Below are positions 6,674 through 58,800 of a stretch of DNA of 64,000 bases, in pieces (the stretch's first letter is position 1; each line of letters begins with the position of its first letter). The stretch comes from Tubulanus polymorphus. Taxonomy: Eukaryota; Nemertea; Palaeonemertea; Tubulaniformes; Tubulanidae. A program made the translations under genes and the position numbers. The notes beneath the pieces were generated by a model. It was not told where the DNA came from. It ran no database searches and worked only from the letters and a program-made list of their open reading frames with translations. The stretch spans positions 2,764,501 to 2,828,500 of the forward strand of contig NC_134028.1 in NCBI RefSeq assembly GCF_964204645.1, written 5' to 3'.

Positions 6674-9600
6674 ATGAGCGAAAGGAAACTGATTATTCTA
6701 AACAGACAGGCTGAACAGCAGCCGTGGGGATTCAGATTACAAGGAGGCAGTGATTTTAAGACGCCTTTATCCGTTCAGTCGGTGAGTCATCGTGATCACG
6801 TCAATCTTAGAAAAAAGTTTTTGTAAATGTTCAATCAATATATTTTATTGATATTACCATAAAATCACACATATGAAGTTTTAACATATCCCGATGCATC
6901 TAATAAGAGTCTTTTAAATTGTGTAGGCTTATAAAATTGAATATAACACTAATGGTATGTTATTTTTTTAACTGTTTTGTGGGACTTCTTACTGTTCTAG
7001 GTGACTCTTCTTTTTTTGGGCTCTTAATTTTAGTGTTTCTGGACATTAACTTTTTGAAGCAACTCATTTCACTTTGGGTTTAGATAGTTTTGATTGAGGT
7101 TAACTCTTTTGAGGCAACTTTTCTTACTTATGTTTCTGGGAGGTAAACCCTGACTAGGCTAGGTTAGGTTAGGTTACATAGTTTTAGTTGAGTTCATTTT
7201 AACCTATTCCATTTTATTATCTAGTGTCAGCCTGGCAGTGTATCTGAAGCATCAGGATTATTTCCCGGTGATGCTGTCCTTCGAATTAATAATCTACCGA
7301 CCGACAATATTAGTCATGACGAAGCCAAACAGGAAATTTTGAAATCTGGAAATATTGTTGAATTAATGATTGAAAGGTAAAATGAAGAACCCATAGCTGG
7401 TTTATTAATGATCTTTACAAACGGAATATAAGTAAAATTCTGGCAGGTTTTTTGATTGGTCCTTACTAATTCTGGATTACTCTTCTGGCGCATAGGCCTA
7501 TATTTCAACCAGAATAAGCTTATGCTTTACCTATTCCGGAATAGTGTAAATCCTAAAACCTGATACAAATGGCCAGTGGCGTTTTTAATCCGGAATTGGT
7601 ATTCCCAAACTGGAATACGTTTAATGGAAACCTGTCTAAGGTTTATTGGTTCATCATCATATTTCTGCTGTATTTGATGTTCGTATTTAGAGTATATCTC
7701 GTGTGTTAAGTTGTTCGTCGGTGAATTTTTTTCAGAGGAGGAGCTACGATCTGGCGTCCACAGGTGACTCAACTGTCCAATATTAAACCACATCAACCGA
7801 ACACACAACAGTTTCATCACGATTCTGAGCCGGTTTATACGAAAACATCACTGAAACATGATCATCAGGTAATTACGTCTACTAGGCATTATACCCTCTT
7901 GTCGGTTTCCCGATGATGTGCCAATTCTTACATTGGCAGACGCAGTTTTGTTTAGAAAATATGAAACTCACTGTTTTTTAAGAACTACAGTAAATGTGAC
8001 CCAATTGTATGTATGAAAGTGGAATTTAAAATCAGCAATTCAAGAATCTGTTGTAGAAATATTCTATTCTTTATAGTATCAATTTATTACACGAACTGGT
8101 ATGAGGGTTTGTATGATGATAGTGTGGTATGTGCAACCACTCTCTGCTGCTCAACCAACAGCTACGGGTAGCTCTCCTTTAGCTCTATGTGCGATGCATA
8201 GATTATAAATTCTATCCGATTTCACTGTGGAGTATATATGTGTGTGTGTAGGTGTTTGCTTGAGTTATTTTCAGCTCTCAATCTATTTCTATTGCAGCTT
8301 AGCCTGTATTTGATCCTATAAGCTGATTATCATTCTACGCCAGTCTATCATGAAAGTCCTGCTCTAATGAAAGATGAGGATAAAATTAAACGACATTAAA
8401 AAACTGTCTTCTAAACTGGCCATATTTTGATTGAATAAAGAATTTAAAAAAACTTTGAAATAAATCATAAGAAAAATTGTTAGAAGGTGCTCAAAGAAAT
8501 GTCTCGAATTGAAAGGGGACTTTTAAGAAAGCTGTTGGCCTAAGGGAAATTCCTTGTCTCCCTGCATCTTCCCGTATAAAAGGTTTTTTCAATTCAAGTG
8601 ATGAATTACTTTTTTCTCACTGTTTTTAGGAATCATTGAATATTGGAAGTAGTCACAATCGTAGCGCGGCACCGTACGGCAGTAGAAGGCACGGCTCAGG
8701 ACCCGAGATCGTTCACGCTCAGTTTAATTCTCCAAAAGGACTTTATTCTAATAAGAATGCTGAAAGCGTCTATCAGAAAGCTGAACAAGATCTTGCCCAG
8801 TACGTATCTATATAAATTACAAATGCTTAACACCCATAAAAATCTTAATATGGGACATACGAAGCAAGTCCAGATGCATTAGACAACTAAAAAAGGATCA
8901 GTAATTGAGGTCACATGAAATGATTCCCTCACACTTATTGTACCAGGGTAATATTGATTTCCAGTAGATTTACTTGATTGTTCAACGCAGACCTTCCTTT
9001 ACTAGATCGAATTCAAATCCTCTCATCACATGTACCACCAATCGATATTAAATTGATGTTCCTACAGTTTTGGGCAAATATCATTTTGAATCTTCTTAAA
9101 TCATAGTGATGGACACCAGCGCGACTCGGATGAGGTACAACATTTAGGTTATTCAAACCCGAATACCCAATCACGTTGTTTTCGTCGGTTAGAACATGAC
9201 CTTGAGTATGATGGGGAAGGTCATAGCCCCAGTGGTGAGTAGAGGTGTTCGGCCTGCTGCTGCTGCTGCTGATGCCTGTAATGTAGCATTCAGCGAACTG
9301 ATATGTAAGATTGTTTTCCAATCAGCGGCAGCATTTCAATCAAAGTTATTTAATTCTTTCCACCAAATCGAAGCAAAAGTTTAAGGAATTGGAAAACAAC
9401 TTTTTATCAACCTGAATTTTAGGTGCACCTCGGTACGATATTAGGTTTACAATATATAACCATCTCACTATAGTAATGTGTAAACAGTCAGTACCACGTC
9501 AGTCAGTCAGTCATCGCTGCTTGCATGTTATCACTAATTTACCACACAAAGCCTTTGCCCACTTCGACTTAGTGTAAATATCTTCCAATTCTATACATTG

Positions 9601-11698: not shown

Positions 11699-12376
11699 AA
11701 AGTAAGGATTGCGTCGAGATATTTGTCAAGTCAGTCTTTTATCGTTGAGCCGAAAATGTCAAGGTTAAAATATGATTTATATACGAATATAATAGTTATT
11801 TTTATGGGAATTTTAGTTTGAGGAATGCCATCTAGTAGGCAGCACTGTCTAATGAGTTGAATGTATCTATTATTATAGGTAAGTCAGTCGTCTGTATAGT
11901 GGTTTATATATCAGTTGAGGAGAATGCATATGAAACCCAGTGGAGTCTAAAACCAGGGGTTGTATAGAATACCTCTGCTGTACTAATGTAATACCGGATA
12001 AATTCGCGCTTCCATCATTAAAAGAACATATACACCCGACTGACTCTGACTCGCTCGCTCGCTCGTAGACCAACCCATCAGCAGCGACGACGATGATGAT
12101 GAGAACTGATGTGCAGACTTCGACCTCAGTTATCTTCTGTTTATAATGAATTTTAAAAATGATTGTTCGGTGCAGTAGTACCTGAATGTGTTTACAAGTG
12201 TGAACCTTCTTACCCAAACTCTTAACGAAATTTAAGCGGATCAGATATCTGTATATCAAACAGTCCAATACACGCGTTATGAAAATTTATCGAAAGTTCG
12301 TATTGTGTTTGTATCCGATTAATTATTATTTCTAAGTTCATTTTAACGAAGTTCTATTGTAGGAGTTTGTCCTGTA
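11699..12376. other. 3' flank of the ALP-type gene
   Basis: Non-coding. It is probably 3' UTR of the gene ending at 11698, because no canonical AATAAA is seen before 13786. Confidence 0.45.
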
Positions 12377-32616: not shown

Positions 32617-35600
32617 ATGTCGGCCGGAATGCAGATAAGTGCTAAGTTAGACCGTACGGATTCGAGCACACCGTGGGGATTTCGATTACAAGGCGGAAAG
32701 GATTTCAGTAGACCATTAACTATACAACGGGTACGTTATTCTCTAGTCTATATCAATTTAAATTTGAATTTATTGATGAAACGGCAATCATATACTCAAT
32801 CACTCGCTTGATGTGTGTGATGCCTCAATACTTGAACTGTAGGCTCCAGTGGCCTTCGCATCTTTTTGGAAAATCATATGATGCCTGGAACGAAAATTTG
32901 AGTTAGAAGATTCTTACTAATGATTCTGAGTTCAAACTAAACTTAAAGGACGGGCGACAAGGAGAGGGTTAAGACTACTGAAGAGCTAAAACTGCCAATA
33001 ACCTGTTCTGATTTTGTGTGACTCATAAAACTCATATAAATAGATAGCTGATATCCAATCTCAAGTACCGGACTTCACAAACATTGTTAGTTTGACCTAA
33101 GTATATATTATTCTAGGACAAAGTTATTTGACATTATTGGTGTCCTTATTTGTGCAATTATGTTACATACCCCGGTATGGCTACTGTTCAGAGCCTGAAT
33201 GGGACACTTCTCTGAAAGTGCCATTTCAACTCCTGGCAGGGAGGCACAGAGACTAGATCCCACAGGAGAAAGAACGACTCATGACATGTTCCCAAAACTG
33301 TTAGAGTGCCTGACAGATTTTTCTGTTAAAAGAATTAATCAGATACCTCTCCATGCCTACCGGTATATAAAATCATGCATTAGTCCTAACTGCCATAAAT
33401 TAAACGTTAACAATATGCGCAAAATCCAGCTGTCAAATACCCAGGGATCTGGCGCTGAATTTATTGGTATAAAACGATTTAATGTTAAATAGGCCTTTAT
33501 GAAATCTGATCTACAGTATTTTGTTAACAGCATTATTGATAGAATTATTAATTTTTCGTCTGTCTAACAGACGGACTGTTTTAACCTCTCGTCAACAGAT
33601 GTGAAACAAATTAATGATTCAAGCCCCGCATATATCTCCTCCCAGAACCTAGGCCTATACATACATTATGTAATTATGTATGCTGAACATTGCTTTTGAC
33701 TCATGAACTGTCAGCCTGGCCTCCGGGTTCAGGCCTTTACCGTTTTAAGTGGTGATACTTCACTTACATAAGATCCTATTGTATGCATGGAATGCGTCTT
33801 TAGATAGTTATTGAAAATATTTTTTTTCACTATCAGTCATTGTTAGGCTACATGTACTTCAGTCATTTCTATCAGTCACCCTTCACATTTCTATTAAGGT
33901 TTCGATTTTCCTCTTGATTCTGGGACTCAGCTCTAGCCTACTAGGAATGAGTTGTTTTCTGAATCAAATTTCAAATAAGTACTTTGGACCAAATATGGAT
34001 TCCAGACAAAGTTAACCTACATTAGGAATATGCCACAAAACCGCTGAGAAGAAAAGTTTGAGTGAATGAGTATTTTATGGGGTTTTTTTATTCCAGGTAA
34101 CACCGGGTAGTTTAGCGGATAAATGTGGATTAAAGGCTGGAGATGTGGTCGCTAAGATATCTGGTGTCGACACGACGAGTGTGTTTCATAAAGAGGCTCA
34201 ACAAGCTGTGATTAATAGTGGAAATTATCTAGAACTCGTCTTGCAGAGGTACGGGTTTAAAATCTTTGACTAAATGATTTATATTAAGTTTGGGTTAACA
34301 TTCAGTCTCCTGCTTTAAAAGGAGTTAAGCTAAACAGAACTCCCAACTTGTCCATCCGGTCAGTGGCTTCAAATCTAGGCTGTCCAGGAGTTCCCAACGC
34401 ACCTGGGGGAAATGGCTGGTCCTAAATGGCTGTAAACTGAAAGAAGGAAACAGCTATTAGAAATATATTTCAGTCACAATCTTCCCCCCTTTTTTTAAAG
34501 CATTTCCCCATTAAATACAGATAGAAGGAAATTGCTTATCATAAGCGGAAGTATCCTCAATAGTTTTGATAGTTAATAGAACTGTTCAAATATTTCTCAA
34601 GCTGATCATTGAATGATCACGCAATATAATATAAGGCCTGTATCGTGACTGTTCTTCTATCACACAATGTACCGTGACAGAGGTTAGAAAAAAGTACGTT
34701 CTATTCGATCTAGGTTTTGTAACTCGTACTACAAACGGACTATTGATGGGAAATTTGTGATATTAACCTGAATAAAGCTCTATAAAGCCTACACATAGTT
34801 ACCTGTTCTTTAATACACAGTATAGACAACCTATTACTCGTTTATTTGTGCTCGTCCCAGCGCATTTAAAAGCACATTTGTACTGTATATCAAGTATTCA
34901 AACATTTGGTTATACCGAAATTGTCTGATCGATGTCAGAATATAACTGGTTATATGTCTAGTATGTAATGCCTCTATTCCTAAAATTTGTAATATGAACT
35001 TTGGCATTTTCTTCTAACGTTATTTATTAGGCTACTAAAAAAGCTTTCACCCTGAGGAATACCGATTGATAATTTCAATTTCAATTTATTCATCATAAAT
35101 CCAAAGTATAAGATTGTGAATGAAGAAAACAACGATAACAACAAACAGACAAAAAACAAAAATGTGTGACACAAAGATGTGCACTAACAGAAAAATAATA
35201 AAAGGAGAGAGAACTAATACAATGTCTAACATATATATATATACAATATTATTTAAGTGATATTTACAAGCCCATGATATATGAATTTCGCAATATTTAA
35301 GAAGATTGGTTTATTGGGATTAGTAAAGGCCGAAAGAAAAGTGTCTAGGTTTAGATTTACAATATCATATTTAGTTCTTAAATTATCCTGCAGTTTACAA
35401 TAAAAAAGAAAATGGGATTGATAAGATTTGGTTTGACGTATGTCATCTTTATAGTCAGAAGAGTTGACAGTGAAATAATGTCTGTGAATCTACTTCACAT
35501 AAAAGATGAGTAGTATAGGGTGTGTATTGAGACCTGTACGAAAGCCTATCATTGCTCATTGCGATATGAACTCGATGACTTCGCGTCTTCTTCAGCGGTG

Positions 35601-38600
35601 GCTAAAATTCAGATAAAATTTCATCGCAAATAGTTAGATAAGTTTCTCCCGAGAAATAGATTCGTGGTTTTTTTTATGTCGCTGATAAGAAAGAGATACC
35701 GAATGAATGGAGTTCTGATCGTTGATTTCAGCGCTCCCGACTCGGCGTATTATGCCCGCTTTTATCTACGCTATTGTGCGTATAAAAGATCCGTCGTTGC
35801 GTTATTGAGAACTGACTGACTGGAAGCCGCAGGGTTGTATTAACCTTCCAGGCCCTATAATACATATAGCTATAACGTGCCACCACGGTGTGGTGAAACA
35901 TTAAATGTTGGCGAAAGTTTTTCCATTCACCACCCATTGATGTAGGCACTTTGCTCGGTTGTATCTAGCGCTTGACTGATGCAGTCAATGTCAGTCAAAG
36001 CCAACAACTCTCCGATATACAGAAAACATCCGATCGCAACATTTACCTCTATATTAGTTTTTTGTGTTCATAAAGGTCGATATCTTCCCCGCAAAGGATA
36101 GAAATATTGCCTCGCTATAAAGCTGGGAAACCCCCCTGACTAGTAATGATCAGATTACCAATACAGCTTCAAACCAATCATGGAGAGACTCGAGCGATGC
36201 TAAAATGTTACCATAGCTATCCCTGAAAAGTGCAGTTTCTTGAAAAAATTTCGTGATTAAGTTGGCCTATAGGTATAACTGTACATTTATGCAATTCATA
36301 TACACTAATATATCACAAACAAACAGGTGGATTATATATAGATATTATATACAGTTTTCAGTAATTAACCCTCCCTCAGTAGTTGAGCCCCCTCTCTCTC
36401 TCTCTCCCTCTCTCTCACTGGCAGTCTGATACACAATCAGTGGTTTGTTTGTTACTCAGTGAGATGTGATATGAAAGAAACCGATGTATCATAGATAGAC
36501 TGACTGAAGGGCAATCCGAACGAAGAGCGAAGAATTCGTATCAGTTTCGGAAATATCAGTTCGAATTCGGGATCTATTATTTTTTCGGGTTTTTAGATAT
36601 ATATTAATTTTAAGATGTATCCTTTTCGTCGGTAAGTGTGATAACGTAACATTTTTAAGTAGCTTGAGTAGCCTTTTAAAATTGATTTTGTATTGAAATG
36701 TTCGAGGAATTTGTATGTTCATGATAAATTAATTGATAGAATATTCTGCTTTGAAAATCATTTCAAATTGTTGTTTAGAGAAATCCACGGCAAAATCGAG
36801 TTGAAGTTATCATTTTTTATTTTCTTGAAAAATGTAAAATTAAAATACAAAGACAATTTTGTGGTTTGATTCAAATGAAGCATATGTATTTTTTTGTTTA
36901 TATTTCAGGGGAGGTGCTTCGTCCTATTATGCTCCTGATTCATACAGCTATCCAACATTCTCAGAGGCAGCTCAGCCAAGTCCATATAGTTCACAAGTAA
37001 GTCCTCCGTGGTCATAGATACCTGGCATTCTGGGCGAATTCGACCTAGCATTGCCCGCTAAGGTACTTAACAATGCTTATTTCCGGTTAATGGGTACCGT
37101 TCATGTATATACCACAGTTTATTCTAGAGCGATAAGGTCTAACGATAAAATGGATCTCCGGGTGATTATGTTAGTAGGCCTATATTCCGGTGGTTATTAT
37201 CTTGTGTACGTGGAGATAAATTTTGTTTTTTTTTAAGTAACAATTTTAATTTGCTTTCAACAACTGTCGTCTGACCTTTTCAATTACCTAGCAAGATGAA
37301 TCGAGAAATAATAGTACATTGAATCTATGATTAGATTTAAAATGTCAGAAGTTTTTGTCTTTGAAATGAATTCTTCGATTTTGCCTAAGACTGCAGTCTG
37401 TTTTCAAAATGATTGATAACCAGTCATCTCTATACCCTCTGTTTAGTGAGTTGTAACACTGATGATACCTCCTCTCCACCTCCCTCTCTCTCTCTCTCTC
37501 TCCCTCTCTCTCCCTCTCCCTCTCCCTCTCCCTCTCCCTCTCCCTCTCTCTCTCCCTCTCTCTCTCTCTCCCTCCCTCTCTCTCTCCCCCTCTCTCCCGT
37601 ACAGGCCTCTGTGTGCTCGGATATACAGAAATTCCAGGTTTATCCTCAACTGCTATCTGTGTAAAACTGGTGTATGGTTTCGTTGTAGCAAATTTCATGT
37701 AAAATGTAATTCGTAGCAGCTGAAGTGGTTGTAGACTGAGAAAAAATTGTACACTTTTCCTAGAAAACTGACTAAATACTACCCTACATATGAAATATTA
37801 GACTTTATTTTCAAATTTCTGTAAACTGAATCTTACCGGCGATCGGACGTGAATCATTGCGAGCTTTCTCATTCCAGCCTAGATTAAGAAGCTTTGTTTG
37901 AAATATGAAGAATATCGAGCAAAATTTCTAACATTGCTTAATCTTGAAATGCAATATATAAGATACTATTGAAGTATCAATCGACGCTGTCTTTGAGAGT
38001 AACGTTTAATCTTAGTATGTCTAAACACCAAAAGGAAATTACTGCAATCCATCCTAATAAGATTGATAGTAAAGATCGCCAAAACACAAGGAAGTCCACA
38101 ATTTTCAGTTATGATTTCGAAAGCCTGTAAAATCTAGCCTATAGAACAAGCAATGGCAGGTGAGTTTGCTAGGTTTCTGCTGTTCTTGTATTTGCGTTTT
38201 CTTCATACAGCGGCTGTAGTGTACATATCATATATCACTGAACTGTATATAGATGGCCCCTGGAACGAGTAGTACGAACCTGAGAGAAATAAGAAGATCT
38301 TATACATAAATGCTGAATTTATCGCAATAGATTATATGCTATTTCGTCATATTCTTTGTAAGAAAATTTAGGAGAAGATTTGGCACATTGTTACCTCGGA
38401 CAAACTGGCTTGGCAGTGAATATTATTACTTATATATAAACATATCTTAAAAATCATTATGGAAAAAATGAATGTAGTTAAAAAAAAATTCATCAGAGTT
38501 CGTAAAGTTTAGAATTGTTTTAAATCTGATTGCGTATCTCGCTTATTTCGAGAGGTACTTCGTTCTCTCGAAAAATGATGACCACATTCTGTAAACATGT

Positions 38601-41600
38601 CTTTCTTACTTGAAATTTCCACTTCATCAATACAGAATCTTTATCTGACTGGATATCTGTGAGAACATCTTTTAGTCGTGTTCAATTCTGTTTTCTAAAA
38701 TATGTCGAATTCTACAGTTTACAGCAAAAATGAATGTAATTTTGCACGAGTGTTGAGGATATGTGTGGTCCCTACATCATTTTGGGGGAAACCAAACATG
38801 GAACGCCCCACATAGTAGTAATGAGACTGAAAAATGAATGTGATAATGATATAGGGTAATTTCATTTCCTTTATCATACAGGCATTAGTAATCTGAATGA
38901 CTGTGATAATTTCCCTGTTATCCCTTTTATTGGCCAATTATAATTACGCATTCGAAAAATATATTAAGTTATTCATTGTTCCTAGAACAAAGCCTTCTAT
39001 GATATCATATGGCACCGGATCTCTCTCGGTCGGTCGGTATTCCGGTAAATGCATTCTCCTATGTTTAGTCATTCAGTCCGAGGAATTTCTGTCTCCAAAC
39101 ATACATTTTTGCTCGAGACATTTTCTTGGTAACCGCCATGAAATGGGACGTATATATACCTATTTATATTCGTGTGAATAGCTATGAAATATGTTGCCTA
39201 TCTACGGTATTTTTCTGCGTATAAATGCAATGTTTTGTCTCATTTTTTAATTTCGTTTTGATAACATTATGTGTGTCGTTGTATGTACGCGTTGTATTAA
39301 ATGGGAAATGGCTTATTGACAAGAATGCAGTGAAAAGCCGAGCATGCATTACTAATGCCACCGGTTTTTCTAATGAAATGAATTATGCGCTTTCTAGTAT
39401 CGCCCTGTATGGACTACTTTATCAATTTATCAATGCCCAAAATAAACGAAATAAAACAATCTTGCATTGCTTGAATATTTGAGATGTTAATGTATTTTGT
39501 TATGGAGACGAGATTCCTTGCAGTCATAGCGCGTGATAAATTTATAGTCAATGGTTTTTTTTAAAGATGAATAGAAATTGTATGCTGAAGGCTGTACTTC
39601 ATTTTTACATAGCTTCACCTACACGTTTAAGCCCTTCTGCTGGATTCATGAAGAAGCGAGGATGCATGATTAGTTAGAGTTTGAATCCATTTGATGTTGG
39701 ATTCTTCCATGGAGCCTGAGTCTATTATTCTTCCCAGCTGTTCATTCATTCCCTTACCTCAAACTCGGGTTCAGATGACCTTTACAGTTTTACCTATATA
39801 CCTGCCTCCTCGACATGCTATTAGAAATGTTCATACGTTATACGTTACTTAGAGCTATGAGCATGAGATGACTGCTCGTAACTTAAGACTGCCTATTCAG
39901 GGCTTCTAGTGGACTAACCCAGGAAGAGTCACACATTCAGTCTCCGAAATTCAATATTTACAATGCCTTAGATGAATGCTTCGAATTTTTCAAAATTTTA
40001 CCTCTGATCCCAGTATACAATAAGTCTACAGTACTTAGATCTATGGGATAATGGTTCGGCAAACTGTCTAAGCTAGTCGATTTCATATATATCTAAACGT
40101 TGTCTGTTCTTGTTATTCATTTCTGAGAGAGGGAAATTTTTACATCATGCCGCGTAGACTGTTATAGATTTAAACTGATATATACCGACGTATGGCGTAT
40201 ATACCACGGTATACGCGTACCATATACCACCATATACCACGGTATACCACCAACCTCCTTACAACTTATATAACCTTCTCATTCAAGGTTATTATCCTCA
40301 CCTCCCAGATTTAGTTATATACGCAACCGTTCAGATACAACCCAACTAGGCTTCTTCGTTTCAACATTTCTCGATGATGTTTTTACATCAGGAAATCCTA
40401 TCATCGTGTAGTAACATAGAACATATTATACGTGTACTGGAACCCACATATTTGTTTTATTGAAAAAATGTTAATTTTTGTTCGGATTAAGTCGTTATTT
40501 ATCTTCAATATTTGTAGAAATGAACGAAGTTGTTAGCAAGACTGCTAATCATTTTCATAGATCGAAGAAAGAAAATTCCTGCATCATCGCAATTTGAATC
40601 ATTCGTTGATTTTCATGTTTTTTTCTCCACATTTTTATCGTTTCAGGCATATAATAATCCCGCTTCAAATTATTCCTCTTCACCAGCCTCAGGAATCGGT
40701 AGTCAAATGTCAAATCTTTCATTAAACAGGTTAGTTTCAATATCAAAAACGAGATGGCAGCACTATATAGACAATAATTTTGTTTATATCGCCCCGTGGT
40801 TAGTGCCGGGTATGTATATAGCGAAAAAGCGTAGAAATATTAGACTTTTAGGAAATTAACTCGCAGTAGTTTGTCATGCAAATGATTGCATGTGATAGTA
40901 GATAATTGCCAGCTCAAGAAGCATGATAAATTTTCATTCAGTTGCATAAAGATCTCTTTAAGTTATTTTCCAATATTTTCATTTGTATTATTTTCAATTT
41001 CGTGCTGACCAGTGGATAAGGAAGTGATAACCTTTAGTTAAGTTAGAATATATATCATTCATGGATTTCATTTTGTTTATGTTTCAGATCTCCGCAGCCA
41101 TTCAGATCTTATGAAGACACTTCTCCAGGTCTGCATCAAAAAATGATTATTGTACTTACTAAATATAATTTGAAAATGTTTGAAATAGACGAAAAAAATA
41201 TTGAAGCCAATTTCCAATTATGAATAATAAGTGAACATAATGAAAGGGGACCCGTGGGGCGGGGAAGTTTTCCATCAAAATCTCGAGGAAAAATTGTGAT
41301 GAATGTAAATGTTTCAGAACCCATAAAAGTGAACGTTAATGTAGAAGTTGTGGCACCCTCGTCTGACGAGGGCGCCACTGTTCCCGTCGTCGTGCAAACA
41401 TCGCAATACAATTCACCGATCGGACTTTATTCGGCTGACAATACGACGCAGAGCCTCGAAAAGAGCAAAATCGATAATCGGTAATGAATGAATGAAACCT
41501 CATCGGGAATCTTCTGTACTTACTAGTATGTAAGAATTACGTGCATGGGATCCTTATATTCCCAGTTCTCGAATAGCTGACCGAATAGACACCTGAACCT

Positions 41601-44600
41601 ACCTTGAAAATCTAGGTTATTCAGGAATATTCTGTTACTGGGTTCTTTTGGGTTTTCATGCGAAATTCTTACATCTTTTGTAATCATGCTTAATGCCTAT
41701 ATGCTTCATAATCATCCATTATTTCAGGGAATGTGGTATCAATGGTTCGGTCTGTTCTTTCGCTTGCGTCTTTTATTGAAAATTCAGCAAATTTCATAAA
41801 AATAATTTTTATAGCATCTTTCTCGGTGTACTTTTCATTATTTTCGATTTTTGACTCGAAATATTTAGTTGTTAAATAATCCAAATATTCAGATAAGCAT
41901 AAGTGAAAATAACGGACCTTGTTATTGGTATAAATGGTCACTCAGAGGAAGGCATGGAGTCTATGTATATCATTATATATCTATATTTGATTATTTAGGT
42001 TATGGAGGTGGTGCGCCATATCATCCAAGGTAGCAAAAACTTGTTGTGCGAAAAAGTGTTGTTATTTTTTCCCCCTTTTTCAAGATTTCGTCGCTTATTT
42101 TTTGTGCCTTTGGCATTTTTAATCGAGAGAAATTTCTATATATCATCATGGCTTGGAACTTGTGGATTTGACGAAAATCTGATTGGAATTAATGCTGTGA
42201 AAATCGATGTTTAATTTCATCAAATTCTTAAGTTTTCATATTTGAGAAGTTTTTGCATACATTTTGAATATACAGTAAACTCTGCTCAAGTTGGATCTTT
42301 TGGGGTCGTAAAAATGTGTCCGACTTAAGTGATATCTGAGTTGAATATTATGTATTTCATATATAGTGTCACAAAAGATATTTGAAAAAACATCCGAGTT
42401 GAACGGATCCGACTTGGGCTGAGTCTAATGGTTATACTTATACTGGGTTTTCTATGTTTATTTTCGTTCTGATTGAATATTATTTTCAATACTTATCTCT
42501 TCTTATCCTTTACCTTAATCAACTATTTTCTGTATACAACATATCTCTTAGTTTGCTTTTAGATTTAGTAAAAATGTCTTGCTTTTTCACTCTTTTCACA
42601 ATTCATGAGTAAATGTTATTTTGTCCATAGATATCAATGAAATCCCCATACAATGTATATTACAGGGCCTATAGATATTTACACATTTTAATTTTGTCTT
42701 TGAAAATGATATTCAATTTAATGCACGTTTGTTCATGATAAACCTTTACAATGAACTTCACCAATTGTGAAAAAATCATCAATACCATAAATATCTTCAT
42801 CATAATTAATTCTTTCGATTATTTATTGGTGAAAGTCATTTAGAACTGAATTTCGATATCTAGTTTTTATTACTAAACGGATTGATTTGCATGGCATTGC
42901 TTATTTTATATAAACCATAGGAAAAGTCCAACATTTGAGCAAAATTCCATTAAGAAGAAATCGCCGCCGACCGAAGCGCCCCCACCTGTACCAGAGATTC
43001 CCCCTCCGGTACCGCCACCGCCTAGCAACATGACCAACGGTAAGCCGGGGGTTGTGGTTAGTTCAGAGACGTTGAAACTGATTAAACAAGAAGATGAAGG
43101 TGTGGATGATAAACAGGATGTTACAACACATTCACGTACATTCCGTTTATTACAACAACAATTAGACAGGTATTAAACACACTTGGATTCATTCGGGCAA
43201 AATGCCTGCCTTAGCTGTTAAAAATCACTTCAATGGCAAATGGGAACTTTTGCATTATCCTTACTTTTCTGGCGCCATCAGATACCATCTATGAAAGCAT
43301 TTTAGATGCTGTTTTGCCTGATAGAATGCAGAGTTAGAGTTTATTGCTCCAAATGTTTTGCATGCTGGCTGCCAGATTTAAACTAGATTTCAAATGTTCG
43401 ATTTTTAACGGATTGTTAAAAATGAATTGAAAATATGCTCGCCGTCTGTAACATACGTACCCGTATATTATTATTCTGTCTGCATGTTGGATGTTGAATG
43501 AACTTTCATTTCTTTTAGCCTAAAGTAGATTTGATAAACTATTGTCTCGACTAAAAATTTCTTCTTGTTGCTAAATATTAAATCTTTTTATCTGAATCAA
43601 TTGAATAATCTTCTATCAATGTAGGCAATATCGGAAAATTCTTTAATCACACTATTATTATATTATTATATGATCTGTTTTGACGCATCTTATTGAACTG
43701 GTATGGCGCCATGACCCAGAAATGCTATGAATTACTGGAAAAAAATATTCATTCGCATCTTATTCTAGAAACCTACTTAAATAAATTGTTTGGCACTAAT
43801 ATCTCTTTTTGAATTTCATTTTCAGTGGAACTTACAACCCTCAAGGTGAGTGTTAAACTTGAATTTGACTGCGTTTACAGAATAGGAACCCAGACCTGAC
43901 TACCAATACTATTTGAGAGTAGAAACTACTATTTTAAGAGCTCAATTACTGCCAAAATTATCTAAATCCTCTAAAAATCAGAATAATTTCTAGTTCATTT
44001 CCAATTAAATTACTATTTTCGATCTGAAATTGTGGTCAAAACTACTACTATGTGAGACGCAGCGGTAGTCGGGTCTGGGAACCTAGTTCTCGCATTACTG
44101 GGTGCCTTGTTTAAGCTGTTGACATTTGATATGTTATGAACATGGTGTGGTATCTTACAGAACATCCCGGTGGAAAACGAATGTCACCGATTCTTACGAA
44201 AGAACGCAGCGAATCTCCCAAATCACAGTCTAAATTTGTTCCTAAACAATACAATTCACCTATCGGGCTTTACTCGGCTGAAAACGCCGCTTCAGATAGC
44301 GTGCAGCAATGGAAATCTATCAACCCGTAAGAATAAACTCAGCTGGTGGTGGAACTCAAATATATATATATATATATATATCAACCAACTACTCTTCTCT
44401 TATTTTTGGATTGATAACTGCAATACTGAGTTCATTTGTGGACGAATTCAATTCATCTCAACGTTTTGCAGTTTTCAACTTCAAATTCCTGCTGCCCATG
44501 GTTTACCAGCTTATCACATTCTATCTCTCCTATAACCTCTTGGCAGGCGTGGATCTACCAGGGTGCTAGGAGCACACCCCCTTCTCATTCAAAATCCTGG

Positions 44601-47600
44601 ATCCGCCCCTGCTTAGATCACTCAGTTTCTAGTAATTTCCGATAGTTATTGGTTATTTCAAAAGCATATAATTGACTCGTTAATGTAACTGATAACTACC
44701 GGTTTGAGAAACTGTGTGGAGTGGGCTCTAATTACATATGTATATTATAATCTATCAGCACTTGTAAATTTAAGCTATCCCTAACATTTCAGGAAACCCA
44801 CCTTGGCATAAGAGGTATTGTAAAATAGCACTAGATATTCGTAGTTGAAGCTTTTCTGTTTTTATTGTCTCACCCGGATATTTTCAACTCCCCACGTTCT
44901 GTATTTGATGCATACTCAAGATTTGCATTATTTGGAATATTTTACCTCCTATGTTATTTATCACAGCGTTGACATGCAACGATATCATGAATCTAAATTA
45001 TCAATATCGCAATTTTCTCCATTGAAGGGTGATAAATTTTGTGAAATGTTGTCATGCCATATTATTTGCATGCATTTTTCCAAAAATGGATACAAAGAAA
45101 GCATGATAAGATAAATGCTATATTCATTCGTGAAGTTTTTCTAAAAAGATGAATGGCCAAAATAATTTCAGGAATAAAATACCCCCAGTCAGTAATAAAG
45201 CCACGAAATACGGCTCAAAAGATGAATGGGCTTAGTAAGTACGGACGGTGTATAGAGGTTGTAGTCCGTAGCTGTTTATGGTGTGTCTTGGCTGTGAATA
45301 TATTGCAGTCATCTTCACTTTTCTAGCAGTGTAGAGGTCAAAGTTTCACTAAGAAATATCCTTTGATATTCTGGGGCCAGCGCCTCGGTTGTTAGTCTGG
45401 GTCAAGTGATGATGATATGCAGCTAAATTATAGGTTGCTGACAATATCTAGAAATCATTCAGACTTTAACCCGAGTGAACACAATAGATTATATACTGAT
45501 TCAATGATCTATATAGTTATTGAAACACTTATCCATAAGAATTATGATTAAGAGAAATCCCACAATTGATGTCTAATAGTTCAAATTTCGTAAATGTGCT
45601 GAGACTACAATGTTTCAACTTCATTAGTGGGATTTTTCTTAATTTATGTGATGCATTGATGTTTTTTGTATTAATGTCTAAAATGCATGATTTTGAACAA
45701 TATTCATTGTCCTGACATGTGATTTATCGTTTCTCAGTAATTAACTCAGAACTTGCATGAGAATTTGATTGTAATTTAATGATTTGATTACCTGTTTCTT
45801 TATTAGCCACCTAATTAACCGCATTATTTTTGCATGTTTGTTGTCTTTAGATCTACTAACTCTGAAACACCTAGTGACACAAAACCGGATGGTACGAAAA
45901 TCTATCGGCCATCGGAAACCTACAAACTCGTTAAGGAGCAAGAATCGGTGAAATCACCTCGGAAATCACCAGTCAATGCGAAAGGCGATTCGCCACCGGC
46001 TTCGTCACCAAAAATGGGACGTACGATGCGCCACCTACAAATACAGCTTGACGCGCAAGAATTTCAGCCAGTTACCGTTCAGAAAAATGTATACAGACAG
46101 AAAGATGAGGAAACAAATAACAATGCACCGCAGACGATTACACAAACTACATTTACGAGTGAACCAGTTCGACCCCCACTACCGCAGTTCTCAACCGCTA
46201 AACCATACAGTGCGCCTAAACCTGCGTTCGCGAGTGGGCCGGTTAAATTTGAACCGGTGGCCGCACCATTACAACAGAAATCTTACTCGAGTTTCAATCC
46301 AAATACTAGTTTTACGAGTGACCCCCTCAAAATGGAGCCCTTGGCACCGCCTTTAGATCAAAGTGCCTCAGAGTTTGGGTAGGATGATTGTATGAAAATT
46401 ACTTCAACGACATTCACTATTTCTCATTCACTGTTACTCTCTATCCAAATTAACTTTTTCTCATTGATTTCTTAATGTTTATCTCTTAATAATATAAGTG
46501 CCTACTGGTAATAAAACCAGTATTATTTGAGATTTTGAAAAAATGATAAGACTTAATGAAATATTGATACAATGCGATACAATGAATTTGAACAGAATCC
46601 TTGTGTATTTTTTGTAGCCTGAATGAACCTGGTCGAGACTACAATCAAATGCACGTCGGTCCAGGAGGAGGTGGATATCACGGAGCTCCTACCCACGCTC
46701 CTCCACCATTACCCCAGGCACCTGCTCCAAAATGGAGTCCGGCTAGCAGTGCTCCTCCGGCGAGAGGCCCTGCTGCACCCGGAGGCACTAGAGGAAACCC
46801 TAGGTTTGGTAAGAAAGGCGATGCTGCACTGAGAACTGATTCTGCTACTAGAATCCCGGTTTGTCATGGATGCAGCGCTCCTATCAGGTAAATCGAAGTT
46901 CAACCAAATTATCAATATGTCACAGAAAATCCAAAAAAAATTGTTGAATTTTTCATTTTGTTTATGTTTTTAGGGGGCCTTTTGTCTTGGCCTTGGGTCA
47001 GAGTTGGTGTCCGGATCATTTCACGTGTGCTAACTGTAATGTGAAACTGATTGATATTGGATTTATTGAGATTGATGGCCGTCTGTACTGTGAACGCGAT
47101 TATGAACAATATTTTGCCCCTCACTGCACAAAATGTAAACAAACCATCGTCGGAGTACGTATTACTTGAAATGTCAGAATGATTTCGATTTTGAAAATGT
47201 TGTCCCTCGTTAATGAATGTTAAACGATATTTATTTAAGGATTGTGTGAATGCTTTAAGTCAAACATGGCATCCTCACTGTTTCCTTTGCACTCATTGTC
47301 GTCAGCCAATTGGAAGCGGAGGCTTCCACATGGAGGAAGGTCTGCCTTACTGTGAGAAAGGTGAGAACTCGGAGAACTCATTATTTATGGATAGAAGATC
47401 GTCCAAAGATACTTTTTGCGCCTTTAATCCATGCAAAACTCTTTTAAGATTGATCTAGTGGTACATGTATTGCGTTTTCAGATTGGGCTGAGATGTTCCA
47501 GATGAAATGCAATGGTTGTCAGTTCCCCATCGAACCCGGTGACAGATGGGTTGAAGCCATTGGCCAGAATTTCCATTCAGAATGTTTCAATTGTTCGGTA

Positions 47601-47806
47601 AGTTCGGTCTAAGTAACTTTCAAACTTTTCATTCCAAAAAACCTCATAGGCATATCACTTTGACATATACCCCTTGATTTGAGCTTCACTGGTATAACTT
47701 TTAATATCTTTTTCTGTAGGCTTGTCAGGTGAACTTGGAAGGATCAGCATTCTGTGCTAAGAATGGCAAACCTTACTGCAAGAAACACGCCTCTGGGCGC
47801 TTCTAA
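32617..47806 (+). CDS. Enigma/Zasp/LDB3-like PDZ-ZM-LIM protein with three LIM domains
   Basis: Z-disc or stress-fibre scaffold binding alpha-actinin. Longest in-frame form, 792 aa: 32617-32730, 34097-34248, 36909-36996, 40647-40729, 41088-41128, 41318-41480, 42921-43169, 43826-43845, 44161-44326, 45851-46378, 46618-46887, 46974-47154, 47240-47360, 47482-47597, 47720-47806. Alternative exons are 41999-42029, 44793-44814 and 45172-45234. PDZ 5-89 has the loop PWGFRLQGG. ZM motifs QYNSPIGLYSA lie at 189 and 333. SR-x-FR-type segments occur near 285 and in exon 45851-46378 (GRTMRHLQIQLD). A Pro/Gly/Ala-rich linker precedes LIM1 (from C617), LIM2 (from C676) and LIM3 (from C735). LIM2 and LIM3 have canonical zinc ligands. 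LIM1 has C637-x2-H640 where H-x2-C is usual. The end ...CKKHASGRF parallels CKKHAHxxx of LDB3/PDLIM5/7. It cannot be assigned to one vertebrate paralogue. Confidence 0.94.
35781..35788 (+). promoter_or_regulatory. Candidate internal promoter (TATAAAAG)
   Basis: A strong TATAAAAG in intron 2 of the Enigma-like gene, 1.1 kb before exon 3. No matching first coding exon was found, so an internal promoter is only a possibility. Confidence 0.2.
36391..36416. repeat. (CT)n microsatellite
   Basis: About 26 bp of CT repeats in intron 2 of the Enigma-like gene. Confidence 0.85.
37470..37598. repeat. (CT)n/(CCCTCT)n low-complexity tract
   Basis: About 130 bp made only of C and T, mixing CT dinucleotides with CCCTCT hexamers, in intron 3 of the Enigma-like gene. 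The long SP/LS and RE/GR frames through it are artefacts of the repeat. Confidence 0.95.
40177..40252. repeat. Palindromic ATATACCAC-rich tract
   Basis: Multiple overlapping copies of ATATACC(A/G) and its reverse complement around GGTATAC, in intron 3 of the Enigma-like gene. It can form small hairpins; no other function is visible. Confidence 0.6.
41318..41480 (+). CDS. Alternative exon 6 (first ZM motif) of the Enigma-like gene
   Basis: Phase 1 in, phase 2 out. It encodes EPIKVNVNVEVV followed by QYNSPIGLYSADN, a clear ZM motif implicated in alpha-actinin binding. It is preceded by GTTTCAG and followed by GTAATG. It competes with the 31-bp exon at 41999-42029, which has the same phases. 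Confidence 0.85.
41999..42029 (+). CDS. Alternative micro-exon 7 of the Enigma-like gene
   Basis: 31 bp, phase 1 in, phase 2 out, encoding GYGGGAPYHPR with the split codons from its neighbours. TTTAG acceptor and GTAGCA donor; the donor is weak. Joined from exon 5 to exon 8 it keeps the frame and gives the same arginine at the junction as exon 6 does. If both exons 6 and 7 are used, exon 8 reaches a TGA within six codons. Confidence 0.6.
44161..44326 (+). CDS. Alternative exon 10 (second ZM motif) of the Enigma-like gene
   Basis: Phase 1 in, phase 2 out. It encodes EHPGGKRMSPILTKERSE and then QYNSPIGLYSAENAASD. The motif shares eleven consecutive residues, QYNSPIGLYSA, with exon 6, so the two exons probably arose by duplication. 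It ends CC before GTAAGA. Confidence 0.85.
44360..44381. repeat. (AT)n microsatellite
   Basis: About 22 bp of AT repeats 34 bp after the exon 10 donor. Confidence 0.9.
44544..44611. mobile_element. 68-bp MITE-like inverted repeat
   Basis: Ends CAGGCGTGGATCTACCAGG and, as reverse complement, CAGGGGCGGATCCAGGATTT. It resembles very short DNA-transposon derivatives with CAGGGGCGGATCCA-type ends that occur widely in animals. It lies in the intron between exons 10 and 11. Confidence 0.55.
44793..44814 (+). CDS. Alternative micro-exon 11 of the Enigma-like gene
   Basis: 22 bp, phase 1 in, phase 2 out, encoding GNPPWHKR with split codons. ATTTCAG acceptor and GTATTG donor. It mirrors micro-exon 7. 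Used after exon 9 instead of exon 10 it keeps the frame; used after exon 10 it reads into TAA within six codons. Confidence 0.55.
45172..45234 (+). CDS. Alternative exon 12 of the Enigma-like gene
   Basis: 63 bp, phase 2 in, phase 2 out, encoding NKIPPVSNKATKYGSKDEWA and leaving TA. TTTCAG acceptor and GTAAGT donor, both strong. Spliced to the exon at 46618 (starting C) it gives TAC and continues into the LIM domains. Spliced to the exon at 45851 (starting A) it gives TAA and ends the protein. Intron retention also gives a stop at once (TAG). Confidence 0.6.
45851..46378 (+). CDS. Large linker exon 13 of the Enigma-like gene
   Basis: 528 bp, phase 2 in and out, included in the 792-aa form. 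It encodes a Pro/Ser/Lys-rich, probably disordered linker with GRTMRHLQIQLDAQEF near the middle. The second half holds three loose ~30-aa repeats built on F(T/A)S(E/G/D)P(V/L)...P(L)..P(L).Q. It ends at a GTAGG donor. Confidence 0.8.
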
Positions 47807-52807: not shown

Positions 52808-55800
52808 AGTTTATTGGTTCGCATTTATACATATTCACATAATAAAGCTATACACTATTATATACAGCGGACCGAGGTTTCTTGCATAAAGACAAAAAAC
52901 TTCAATGAGGATGTATGAGTCAATGCACTGAAATTATTGTAATTCATTTCGTTGTTATAAAATGGTCACTAATATCTGTTAACAAGCTGTTGAGATTGTT
53001 ATTTTTGAATGGATTTATTGAAGTTAGCATTCCATTCAGATATTTCGATGGTTATATGTATAATTGGTACCCTGCAAGGCACATCCATCACATCCAAAGT
53101 AAATCATTTTCATAAAAGTTGATAAAATCACTTGCCAATTTTATCACAAACTGTTTCTACTTATAAGGTAGAAATAGAAATCCCTGATAATAGTAAACGT
53201 TTGTATACGTCGTTTTACCCTAATCAATATTGCTTCTAAAATAAACTGTTGGCTACTAAATATGGTGGATTGTTTTTATTCTCATCACTGCACTCCTAAA
53301 GATAAGCTAGATGAAACCAGAGAATTCGCGTTGCTGACACCACCTCCACCTTTTGGGATTTTTGTGAACTATGAAAAAGAAACGACCGAAACTTGTTCTT
53401 ACAGGGCTATTACTTTAGTTCGCAGAATTCCCGCCAGGGGACCGTATGGTGCTGCCACCCAGTTTAAACGTGACGTTTGCTTGTTTTTTTGAAAATTTGT
53501 ATCCATCTGTCCTTCGTAGAAGGGAACTGATTATCTGTATGTCCTATGATGCATGGGAATAGAACCAAAAATAACTAAGACAATTGTTTTAAATACAATA
53601 TGCTTTCAAAGCACACATTATTTATTATCGATAACATTGCTCCAGTGGTCACTATACAAAACGTCAGAGACTGACACAGGATAAACACAGAGCAAACTCT
53701 TTACTACAAAAATAAATTGCCACACTTGTATACGCTGAAAGCTAGGATTACTGTTTTTTTTTTCAATTTTGTATCAGACACAAGCTTCCTCTATATTATA
53801 ATTACTATGTGTATTTACATCATTTGAAGATCAATAAAAACAGTGTCATAAGAACAATCAGTGAGAAGAAATCTAACAAAACTATTCTGTGACTGGAAAG
53901 ATCTATTCTTCCATGTCCTACAGCCATAATTATTCAATTCTAACCCACTAAATCTGATGAATTCTGAAAATTCTGCCAAGAATATAATTCCTTCAGGAAA
54001 GTAAATATTTCAGGAAGCTGGTATCGAATTAGAGCAATGTTACTGAAGGCAGTTAACTTGCTTTCAACAGAACGAACTGTCTTTAAATGGCAAAATATTC
54101 TTTTTTTCCAAAACCCGGTGGCGAGTAAGCACATCCTTAAATACAGCAAAAAAGATTATTAGTTCGCATTTATACAGATTCACATAATAAAGCTATACAC
54201 TATTATATGCAACGGGCCGAGATTTCTTGAATAAAGACAAAAAACTTCAATGAGGATGCATGTGCGCAAAACGGCAATATATACACGATGAAGCTAGACA
54301 TCCAAAGACTGTTAAATAATTTGATTACAAGCTTCACTCATGCATCAGAATTATAGAGTGTCAATAAAAGTATTGAATTATCAAAATCTTCCTTTGCAAG
54401 CCATTTTCTTAAATCATATGGACTTGAAACCTTAAATCAATAATACTTCAGAATAAAGAATATATACGCGTTCAATATGGATAATATCAAAGACAACTAC
54501 TGAATATCTTTCAAATACAAACAGTAGTATTCTTATTCAATATAGGAGAAGCTATAATTATAATATGTTGATATAGCGCTCGAGCCCTTGTATTAGATAT
54601 GATTTAAAAGTGTGTACTGCTTAGTTTCTACCAAGTCTTCCACACATATCAATGATTGATATGTTAAGATTCTCTATACTGGATACACTGACTACACTGA
54701 GATGTTTTGTCAATGCTTTGAAATTATTGTAATTCATTTCGTTGTTATAAAATGGTCACTAATATCTGTTAACAAGCTGTTGAGATTGTTATTTCTGAAT
54801 GGATTTATGTAAGTTAGCATTCCATTCAGATATTTCGGTGGTTATATGTATAATTGGTACCCTGCAAGGCACATCCATCACATCCAAAGTAAATCATTTT
54901 CATAAAAGTTGATAAAATCACTTGCCAATTTTATCACAAACTGTTTCTACTTATTAGGTAGAAATACAAATCCCTGCTAATAGTAAACGTTTGTATACAT
55001 CGTTTTACCTAATCAATTGCTTCTAAAATAAACTATTGGCTACTAAATATGGTGGATTGTTTTTATTCTCATCACTGCACTCCTGAAGATAAGCTAGATG
55101 AAACCAGAGAATTCGCGTTGCTGACACCACCTCCACCTTTCGGGATTTTTGTGAACTATGAAAAAGAAACGACCGAAACTTGTTCTTACAGAGCTATTAC
55201 TTTAGTTCGCAGAATTCCCGCCAGGTGACCGTATGGTGCTGCCACCCAGTTTAAACGTGACGTTTGCTTGTTTTTTGGAAAATTTGTATCCATCTGTCCT
55301 TCGTAGAAGGGAACTGATTATCTGTATGTCCTATGATGCATGGGAATAGAACCAAAAATAACTAAGACACAATTGTTTTAAATACAATATGCTTTCAAAG
55401 CACACATTAATCATTATTTATTATCAATAACATTGCTCCAGTGATCACTATACAAAACGTCAGAGACTGACACAGGATAAACACAGAGCAAACTCTTTAC
55501 TACAAAAATAAATTGCCACACTTGTATACGCTGAAAGCTAGGATTACTGTTTTTTTTCCAATTTTTTATCAGACACAAGCTTCCTCTATATTATAATTAC
55601 TATGTGTATTTACATCATTTGAAGATCAAAGAAAACAGTGTCATAAGAACAATCAGTGACAGAAATCTAACAAAACGATTCTGTGACTGGAAAGATCTAT
55701 TCTTCCATGTCCTACAGCCATAATTATTCAATTCTAACCCACTAAATCTGATGAATTCTGACGTTTCTGCCAAGAATGTAATTCCTTCAGGAAAGTAAAT

Positions 55801-58800
55801 ATTTCAGGAAGCTGGTATCGAATTAGAGCAATGTTACTGAAGGCAGTTAACTTGCTTTCAACAGAACGAACTGTCTTTAAATGGCAAAATATTCTTTTTT
55901 TCCAAAACCCGGTGGCGAGTAAGCACATCCTTAAATACAGCAAAAAAGATTATTAGTTCGCATTTATACAGATTCACATAATAAAGCTATACACTATTAT
56001 ATGCAACGGGCCGAGATTTCTTGAATAAAGACAAAAAACTTCAATGAGGATGCATGTGCGCAAAACGGCAATATATACACGATGAAGCTAGACATCCAAA
56101 GACTGTTAAATAATCTAATTACAAGCTTCACTCTTGCATCAGAATTATAGAGTGTCAATAAAAGTATTGAATTATCAAAATCTTCCTTTGCAAGCCATTT
56201 TCTTAAATCATATGGACTTGAAACCTTAAATCAATAATACTTCAGAATAAAGAATATATACGCGTTCAATATGGATAATATTAAAGACAACTACTGAATA
56301 TCTTTCAAATACAAACAGTAGTATTCTTATTCAATATAGGAGAAGCTATAATTATAATATGTTGATATAGCGCTCGAGCCCTTGTATTAGATATGATTTA
56401 AAAGTGTGTACTGCTTAGTTTCTACCAAGTCTTCCATACATATTAATGATTGATATGTTAAGATTCTCTATACTGGATACGCTGACTACCAGAGATGTTT
56501 TGTCAATGCTTTGAAATTATTGTAATTCATTTCGTTGTTATAAAATGGTCACTAATATCTGTTAACAAGCTGTTGAGATTGTTATTTCTGAATGGATTTA
56601 TGTAAGTTAGCATTCCATTCAGATATTTCGGTGGTTATATGTATAATTGGTACCCTGCAAGGCACATCCATCACATCCAAAGTAAATCATTTTCATAAAA
56701 GTTGATAAAATCACTTGCCAATTTTATCACAAACTGTTTCTACTTATAAGGTAGAAATAGAAATCCCTGCTAATAGTACACGTTTGTATACATCGTTATA
56801 CCCTAATTAATTGCTTCTAAAATAAACTATTGGCTACTAAATATGGTGGATTGTTTTTATTCTCATCACTGCACTCCTGAAGATAAGCTAGATGAAACCA
56901 GAGAATTCGCGTTGCTGATACCACCTCCACCTTTTGGGATTTTTGTGAACTATGAAAAAGAAACGACCAAAACTTGTTCTTACAGGGCTATTACTTTAGT
57001 TCGCAGAATTCCCGCCAGGGGACCGTATGGTGCTGCCACCCAGTTTGAACGTGACGTTTGCTTGTTTTTTTTTTTGAAAATTTGTATCCTTCTGTCCTTC
57101 GTAGAAGAGGAAATGATTATCTGTCTGTCCTATGATGCATGGGAATAGAACCAAAAATAACTAAGACACAATTGTTTTAAATACAATATGCTTTCAAAGC
57201 ACACATTAATCATTATTTATTATCAATAACATTGCTCCAGTGATCACTATACAAAACGTCAGAAACTGACACAGGATAAACACAGAGCAAACTCTTTACT
57301 ACAAAAATAAATTGCCACACTTGTATACGCTGAAAGCTAGGATTACTGTTTTTTTTCAATTTTTTATCAGACACAAGCTTCCTCTATATTATAATTACTA
57401 TGTGTATTTACATCATTTGAAGATCAATAAAAACAGTGTCATAAGAACAATCAGTGAGAAGAAATCTAACAAAACGATTCTGTGACATCTATTCTTCCAT
57501 GTCCTACAGTCATTATTATTCAATTCTAACCCACTAAATCTGATGAATTCTGAAAATTCTGCCAAGAATATAATTCCTTCAGGAAAGTAAATATTTCAGG
57601 AAGCTGGTATCGAATTAGAGCAATGTTACTGAAGGCAGTTAACTTGCTTTCAACAGAACGAACTGTCTTTAAATGGCAAAATATTCTTTTTTCCAAAACT
57701 CGGTGGCGAGTAAGCACATCCTTAAAAACAGCAAAAAAGATTATTAGTTCGCATTTATACAGATTCACATAATAAAGCTATACACTATTATATCCAACGA
57801 GACGAGATTTCTTGAATAAAGACAAAAAACTTCAATGAGGATGCATATGCGCAAAACGGCAATATATACACGATGAAGCTAGACATCCAAAGACTGTTAA
57901 ATAATTTGATTACAAGCTACACTCATGCATCAGAATTATAGAGTGTCAATAAAAGTATTGAATTATCAAAATCTTCCTTTGCAAGCTATTTTCTTAAATC
58001 ACATGGACTTGAAACCTTAAATCAATAATACTTCAGATTAAAGAATATATACGCGTTCAATATGGATAATATTAAAGACAACTACTGAATATCTTTTAAA
58101 TACAAACAGTTGTATTCTTATTCAATATAGGAGAAGCTATAATTATAATATGTTGATATAGCACCCGAGCCCTTGTATTAGATACGATTTAAAAAAGTGT
58201 ACTGCTTAGTTTCTACCAAGTCTTCCATACATATCAATGATTGATATGTTAAGATTCTCTATACTGGATACACTGACTACACTGAGATGTTTTGTCAATG
58301 CTTTGAAATTATTGTAATTCATTTCGTTGTTATAAAATGGTCACTAATATCTGTTAACAAGCTGTTGAGATTGTTATTTCTGAATGGATTTATGTAAGTT
58401 ATCATTCCATTCAGATATTTCGGTGGTTATATGTATAATTGGTACCCTGCTAGGCACGTCCATCACATCCAAAGTAAATCATTTTCATTATAGTTTTGAT
58501 TATTATAGTTGTTATACAAGTACGTTTTTTTTGTATGATGGGGCGATTGATAAAATCACTTGCCAATTTTATCACAAACTGTTTTGTTACATATTAGGTG
58601 GAAATAGAAATCCCTGCTAATAATATGTTTGTATACATCGTTATACCCTAATTAATTGCTTCTAAAATAAACTATTGGCTACTAAATATGGTGGATTGTT
58701 TTTATTCTCATCACTGCACTCCTGAAGATAAGCAGAGAATTCGCGTTGCTGACACGACCTCCACCTCCACCTTTTGGAATTTGTGTGAACTATGAAAAAG

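Follow-up and report, generated by a model that had tools for sequence, protein, structure and literature searches.

A predicted, repeated choice between ZM exons and phase-matched tiny exons in an Enigma-type gene of the nemertean Tubulanus polymorphus

In the palaeonemertean Tubulanus polymorphus, a stretch of 64,000 nucleotides (nt) of contig NC_134028.1 (C4, nt 2764501-2828500; hereafter the window) holds a gene in whose middle an exon coding for a ZM motif is followed by a tiny exon of the same phase, twice in a row. Does this layout form a repeated switch, in which either the ZM exon or its tiny partner is spliced in? As judged from its domains, the gene is a member of the Alp/Enigma family, of the Enigma type, and encodes a Zasp/LDB3-like scaffold. 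Joining exons in one frame from the ATG at 32617 to the stop at 47806 gave a protein of 792 amino acids with an N-terminal Pfam PDZ domain (residues 13-87, 6.2e-13), three C-terminal LIM domains (3 stretches, 1.8e-39) and the ZM motif (Pfam DUF4749, PF15936; 2e-17, 64.2 bits, 3 stretches), the latter encoded by two ZM exons. Among 60 of the 109 solved chains matched, there were PDZ domains from Cypher, ZASP and LDB3 as well as LIM domains from paxillin and PDLIM5. From exon phases and a recurring peptide, we consider it somewhat probable that an either/or choice between ZM and tiny exon is in use in this gene, and that it is repeated.

The middle of the gene was read as two blocks, A and B (Table 1), each containing a lead-in exon (exon 5 or 9), a ZM exon (ZM1, or exon 10, designated ZM2), a tiny candidate (tiny1, or exon 11, designated tiny2) and an exon with an Alp-motif-like (AM-like) sequence (exon 8 or 13), the AM label being a reading of the motif. 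The earlier note on this DNA had proposed that the second ZM exon repeats the either/or logic of the first, and in this its reading of the frame held: coordinates and AG/GT borders were confirmed, exon 9 leaves in phase 1, and a tiny exon that is phase-matched follows each ZM exon, ZM1, tiny1, ZM2 (166 nt) and tiny2 (22 nt) all going from phase 1 to phase 2. With this shared change of phase, exactly one of the two kinds of exon is usable between fixed neighbours; both or neither broke the frame in block A, in block B and in a paralog, R (see below). The exon 10 to exon 11 join reads ...SIN-P-K-P-T-L-A-stop, with TAA after six codons, and after the ZM1 to tiny1 join a stop is reached in exon 8. 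A form with tiny2 gave no DUF4749 match, versus 36.7 bits for the form with ZM2, and by eye ZM2 and the six-residue tiny2 had no ZM core in common.

The tiny exons are lifted above chance by the recurrence of the peptide P[YW]Hx[RK], which is present in tiny1 (APYHPR), in tiny2 (PPWHKR) and in a candidate of paralog R. The likeness of tiny1 to tiny2 was matched by 1 of 168 pseudo-exon peptides compared with tiny2, by 3 of 168 compared with tiny1 and by 1.9% of random pairs. Paralog R (C4, 26.76 Mb, minus strand) held a single phase 1 to 2 candidate between its ZM and AM-like exons at the thresholds of tiny1; this candidate, with the peptide YTPYHGK, can be read in frame from the preceding exon and on into the AM-like exon. 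Spliced after the ZM exon, it reads into a stop at the second codon, and a form with neither also runs into a stop. The three introns that follow a phase-1 ZM exon contained one P[YWF]H apiece, always inside the candidate and always as P[YW]Hx[KR]; of the other family-gene introns checked, 1 of 11 contained P[YWF]H (R 598-3106, as PFH). In a motif background of 176,168 nt, P[YWF]H was found in none of the pseudo-microexons, either phase 1 to 2 (0/114) or of any entry phase with exit phase 2 (0/333). Ignoring splice sites, P[YW]Hx[KR] occurred twice in the background, for 0.008 expected in the R intron, and it appeared in 0.5-1.2% of 2000 order-1 Markov resamples of each intron. Comparison of the R candidate with tiny1 showed their P-Y-H codons to differ at third positions only (3 of 3). 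The motif counts and these codon differences speak against an explanation that we regard as rather unlikely, namely that the tiny exons are chance pseudo-exons and that the real ZM exons are constitutive or are dropped together with their lead-ins (20 + 166 = 186 nt; 41 + 163 = 204 nt); in its favour are the splice-site expectations, the decoys and the frame-keeping sets given below.

Splice sites were scored with a crude model that had been trained on 29 exons drawn from four genes of the family, from which exons 5, 9 and 12 were then removed (n = 26), and were compared with a background of 135,500 nt. Exon 9 had no pseudo-exon as good in this background, and for exon 5 only 0.02 pseudo-exons of like summed quality were expected. 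Open phase 1 to 2 pseudo-microexons of the grade of exon 11 occurred at 0.25 per kb (both sites as good) to 0.81 per kb (sum as good), which amounts to 0.21-0.69 expected in the intron between exons 10 and 12 and, when the count is carried on to exon 13, to 0.38-1.24; the corresponding expectation for the intron of tiny1 was 0.88 (both sites as good) to 2.60 (sum as good). Equal or better pseudo-microexons are thus expected at 0.2-1.2 per intron for tiny2 and at 0.9-2.6 for tiny1, and splice-site strength was rejected as proof of exon 11.

Several observations weigh against the proposed switch. By splice sites alone, neither tiny1 nor tiny2 stands above chance, and stronger decoys are present in both introns: after ZM1, pseudo-exons at 41728-41749 (sum 10.6, phase 1 to 2) and 42666-42726 (11.8), and after ZM2, one at 44967-45028 (13.4). 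The peptide in common is only 3-5 residues long, residue permutation of tiny1 and tiny2 gave 0.05, and P[YW]H is not rare if splice sites are disregarded, occurring 17 times in the background, which corresponds to 0.07 expected in the R intron. When the scan was tightened (sum >= 7.5), that intron gave no candidate; it had been in view before tiny1 and tiny2 were compared and was scanned only afterwards. In paralog P, the ZM intron was without a tiny candidate, and in paralog Q the candidate (27 nt, phase 2 to 2, NNTPEFKPP) lacked the P[YW]H motif, so that 2 of the 5 ZM exons (P and Q) have no motif-bearing, phase-matched partner. Furthermore, the nine middle exons can be combined in order in 512 ways, of which 75 remain in frame as far as the LIM stop; ZM2 occurs together with tiny2 in 9 of these and ZM1 with tiny1 in 6, all without exon 8. 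Exons 9 and 10 (186 nt), like exon 5 and ZM1 (204 nt), are frame-neutral pairs, and the ZM motif can be dropped without a tiny exon. The expectation of the earlier note that one gene would allow four ZM combinations is therefore to be divided: all four keep the frame, as proposed, and the tiny exons are not required for them, because the pairs of lead-in and ZM exon are frame-neutral; 27 of the 75 frame-keeping sets are free of tiny exons and cover all four ZM states, as the chance explanation would have it.

Two of the decoys deserve separate mention. The 22-nt segment at 41728-41749 was considered as the true tiny1 and was rejected, since it lacks P[YW]H although its splice scores are better. 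The 62-nt AG-GT segment at 44967-45028 scores above exon 11 and fits the frame of no neighbour.

Exon 12, with which the span given in the earlier note ends, was considered as the constant exon after the second switch and was rejected in that role. It ends in ...GCT TA/gtaagt, where TA is completed to TAG without splicing, to TAA with exon 13 (TA/A) and to an open codon with exon 14 (TA/C). A position between exon 10 or 11 and exon 13 is ruled out by this junction stop, and exons 12 and 13 occur together in none of the 75 frame-keeping sets. On the direct join, the DUF4749 match (profile positions 2-72) extends without a break from ZM2 into exon 13; with exon 12 inserted, the score was 22.9 bits, for a longer query in which Y was put where the DNA gives a stop. 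Because of the junction stop and the unbroken DUF4749 match, exon 13 is taken as the legal continuation of exons 10 and 11. The splice sites of exon 12 are somewhat above chance (0.03-0.21 pseudo-exons of like quality expected). Its use as a terminal exon was rejected, as no AATAAA or ATTAAA was found from its end to 46000 and the two that were found lie inside it. Exon 12 may offer an optional path that leaves out exon 13, may lead to decay or may not be an exon at all. As a side observation, the junction stop bars exons 12 and 13 from each other, which makes a second, different either/or in the same gene.

These stops bear on a further explanation, in which the tiny exons are real and act as poison exons, their inclusion beside a ZM exon leading to nonsense-mediated decay and lower expression, with exon 12 acting likewise. 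It is consistent with the stops that follow the ZM2-tiny2, ZM1-tiny1 and R joins and with the TAA at the exon 12 to 13 join; as each of the three tiny exons, once the ZM exon is left out, is open and matches in phase, and as they keep a peptide motif that a poison exon would not need, we hold it to be improbable.

The earlier note had further suggested that a whole two-exon switch was duplicated. The ZM exons support this: ZM1 and ZM2 are each other's best match, share the core QYNSPIGLYSA[DE]N and, with z 11.4, have the highest value of the ten pairs among the five ZM exons (5.9-9.2 for the other nine), the raw score of the P-Q pair (71) being above theirs (67). Blocks A and B, exon 12 aside, are alike in the order and phases of lead-in, ZM, tiny and AM-like exons, and the ZM-tiny pair is also present in R. 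The flanks lend less: the likeness of the two AM-like exons is weak (z 2.6, reached by 26 of 1000 shuffles, with higher z for A-P, B-Q, P-Q and Q-R), and exons 5 and 9 were rejected as duplicates, their likeness not being significant (218 of 1000 shuffles). In our reading, a module was duplicated long enough ago for its flanks to diverge, for which the evidence is good in the ZM exons, weak in the AM-like exons and nil in the lead-ins. As paralog R has the same pair, the unit of two exons seems to have been inherited first and duplicated later, each ZM exon being followed by an AM-like exon. It is possible, if doubtful, that a phase-matched P[YW]Hx[K/R] microexon was inherited as a stand-in for ZM, is older than the split from paralog R and became, by tandem duplication, part of a two-step ZM counter, with P[YW]H itself serving as a docking motif. 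A search for a second or allelic copy of 44100-45300 in the 268-Mb genome returned none beyond that region itself.

In the explanation favoured here, the module of lead-in, ZM, tiny and AM-like exons is present twice, and the spliceosome would take exactly one of ZM and tiny per module between fixed neighbours; both, or neither after the lead-in exon, shift the frame and end translation, as the sequence shows. The tiny exon would thus be a frame-keeping bypass by which a short P[YW]Hx[K/R] peptide replaces the ZM motif. Since the lead-in and ZM exons can be dropped together, this bypass would serve to keep the lead-in peptide and would not be the sole way to lose ZM. The choice might be enforced by the frame, by nonsense-mediated decay and by regulated use of a weak tiny donor. 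The donors of all three tiny candidates are weak (1 of the 29 training donors was as low), which may be expected of regulated exons; on account of these donors ZM would be the default, and the tiny exon would be used where ZM is unwanted. Steric exclusion is unlikely, as the introns between ZM and tiny exons measure 518 nt (ZM1-tiny1), 466 nt (ZM2-tiny2) and 347 nt (paralog R), and incompatibility of U2 and U12 sites found no support, the borders being GT-AG with no U12-type sites seen by eye, the only inspection made. TGCATG, which we take to be an RBFOX-type site, was observed at 41542 (61 nt after the ZM1 donor) and at 45067 (about 250 nt after the tiny2 donor), among 27 in the whole window; the counts near ZM1 and tiny2 are too small for a claim of a splice-regulator signal.

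Table 1. Predicted and candidate exons of the Enigma-type gene, with the tiny candidate of paralog R; positions are those of the window except for R
Feature	Position	Strand	Length and phases	Peptide	Basis
First coding exon	32617..32730	+		MSAGMQ..., PDZ start	ATG, GT donor, in frame to 34097 exon; Pfam PDZ
Second PDZ exon	34097..34248	+			In-frame join, Pfam PDZ
Exon 5, lead-in, block A	41088..41128	+	41 nt, 2 to 1		
ZM1 exon	41318..41480	+	163 nt, 1 to 2	...QYNSPIGLYSADN...	DUF4749/ZM match
Tiny1 candidate	41999..42029	+	31 nt, 1 to 2	GYGGGAPYHPR	P[YW]H motif; splice sites at chance level
Exon 8, AM-like, block A	42921..43169	+	249 nt, 2 to 2	SETLKLIKQ...SRTFRLLQQQLD	
Exon 9, lead-in, block B	43826..43845	+	20 nt, 2 to 1	GTYNPQ	Strong splice sites
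Exon 10 (ZM2)	44161..44326	+	166 nt, 1 to 2	...QYNSPIGLYSAEN...	DUF4749 36.7 bits joined to exon 13
Exon 11 (tiny2) candidate	44793..44814	+	22 nt, 1 to 2	GNPPWHKR	Recurring P[YW]Hx[RK]; chance-level splice sites
Exon 12 candidate	45172..45234	+	63 nt, 2 to 2	...KDEWA, then TA	Stop with exon 13, in frame to exon 14
Exon 13, AM-like, block B	45851..46378	+	528 nt, 2 to 2	SETYKLVKEQ...GRTMRHLQIQLD	Frame-legal partner of exon 10 or 11
LIM and stop exons (46974-47154, 47240-47360, 47482-47597, 47720-47806)	46974..47806	+			Profile match, in-frame join
Tiny candidate, paralog R	L012 718-766	-	49 nt, 1 to 2	V-NKTYTPYHGKLFTYF-W, includes YTPYHGK	Scan at tiny1 thresholds

At the 3′ side of the gene, the end of the exon at 46618-46887 and the four exons at 46974..47806 supply the three LIM domains and the stop. 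At 36615-36631, a segment ATG TAT CCT TTT CGT CG/GTAAGT was noticed by eye as a possible alternative first exon, in frame to the exon at 36909, which would yield a form without PDZ. Downstream of the gene, two similar open stretches at approximately 53178-53489 and 56807-57145 (...WLLNMVDCFYSHHCTP...), with a similar one near 49.1 kb, are probably a dispersed repeat.

Searching the genome with the DUF4749 profile gave five places, all on the same contig: the two described here, P in this window, Q at 20.79 Mb and R at 26.76 Mb, whose ZM exons go from phase 0 to 2 (P), 2 to 2 (Q) and 1 to 2 (R). A genome search with the ZM1 protein sequence gave no match besides ZM1 itself, and a 61-residue query from the LIM region found no animal relatives in viral_contigs and genome_contigs. 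P appears to be a separate ALP-type gene with a single LIM domain at 6676-11700, on the same strand and about 21 kb upstream of the Enigma-type gene, with PDZ, ZM (8630-8799), AM-like and LIM parts assigned by reading; its adjacency to the Enigma-type gene is of interest for the origin of the four-LIM ALP/Enigma fusion proteins. Q and R (20.78-20.79 and 26.75-26.77 Mb) have PDZ, ZM and AM-like exons and no LIM match within the 10 kb that follow downstream; both may be Zasp genes that lack LIM, or the LIM parts may lie beyond longer introns. An intron of R (L012, about 2250-2810, minus strand) contains, by eye, a long tandem array with a unit of about 28 nt (GGAGGGTTGTGGAGTGTCTGTGGTGAAT).

Exon choice in the ZM region is already known, as the portions available of the papers cited here indicate, from the precedents of LDB3 and PDLIM3. 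LDB3 isoforms contain either exon 4 (cardiac) or exon 6 (skeletal) (PMC8002584), and LDB3 and PDLIM3 have in common mutually exclusive homologous exons that are older than the duplication which separated the two genes (PMC4465641). In PDLIM3/ALP, exon 4 is used in fetal and more ubiquitous forms and exons 5 and 6 in mature muscle, with misregulation in myotonic dystrophy (PMC3983107), and loss of ZM through this switch has been proposed (PMC9751615, citing Ohsawa 2011). Splicing of Ldb3, Pdlim3 and Pdlim5 is altered upon loss of MBNL1 in mouse heart (PMC4356957), and Zasp52 exon use is changed in fly flight muscle with reduced SF1 or Hrb87F (PMC8534295). Both ZM and AM are thought to be older than the split of the family (PMC3305314, PMC9751615). 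A doubled ZM choice with P[YW]H microexon partners was not found among the literature matches listed or in the text available; among those matches, the term microexon did not appear in connection with ZM, and papers on mollusc and annelid Zasp splicing gave no Zasp exon choice in their titles or the beginnings of their abstracts.

The nemertean gene resembles human LDB3/ZASP, an Enigma-type gene with tissue-specific alternative exons in the ZM region (PMC8002584, PMC4465641). In the text available, however, LDB3 has a single choice with a substitute exon that is remotely homologous, whereas here two ZM exons are accompanied by partners of 22 and 31 nt that lack ZM. It likewise resembles PDLIM3/ALP in having alternative exons with a proposed loss of ZM (PMC3983107, PMC9751615), but PDLIM3 is a single-LIM gene with one switch, for which those portions describe no 22-nt partner exon. 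A short peptide in place of ZM would be a new handle on the role of isoforms without ZM.

In Drosophila, ZM binds LIM and drives Zasp oligomerisation at the Z-disc, and the balance of growing and blocking isoforms of Zasp52, Zasp66 and Zasp67 sets Z-disc diameter (PMC6910826). As ZM has this role, a choice of ZM number would set valence: the two switches would fix ZM at 0, 1 or 2 per molecule, and it is possible, if doubtful, that this splice-set valence for LIM-ZM oligomerisation bears in turn on the size of the Z-disc or dense body. ZM-LIM binding has been proposed as the ruler of Z-disc diameter, with isoform control described, in the portions available, as acting on the number of LIM domains or by one ZM choice; a gene with 0, 1 or 2 ZM, set by two splice choices that the frame locks, would allow a direct test of the valence idea. 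The nemertean gene would thus be like the Drosophila Zasp52/66/67 system in its ZM-LIM binding and in isoform balance as a control of size (PMC6910826), and unlike it, where the text available mentions no double ZM switch, in that the number of LIM domains varies in the fly, whereas here it would be the number of ZM motifs.

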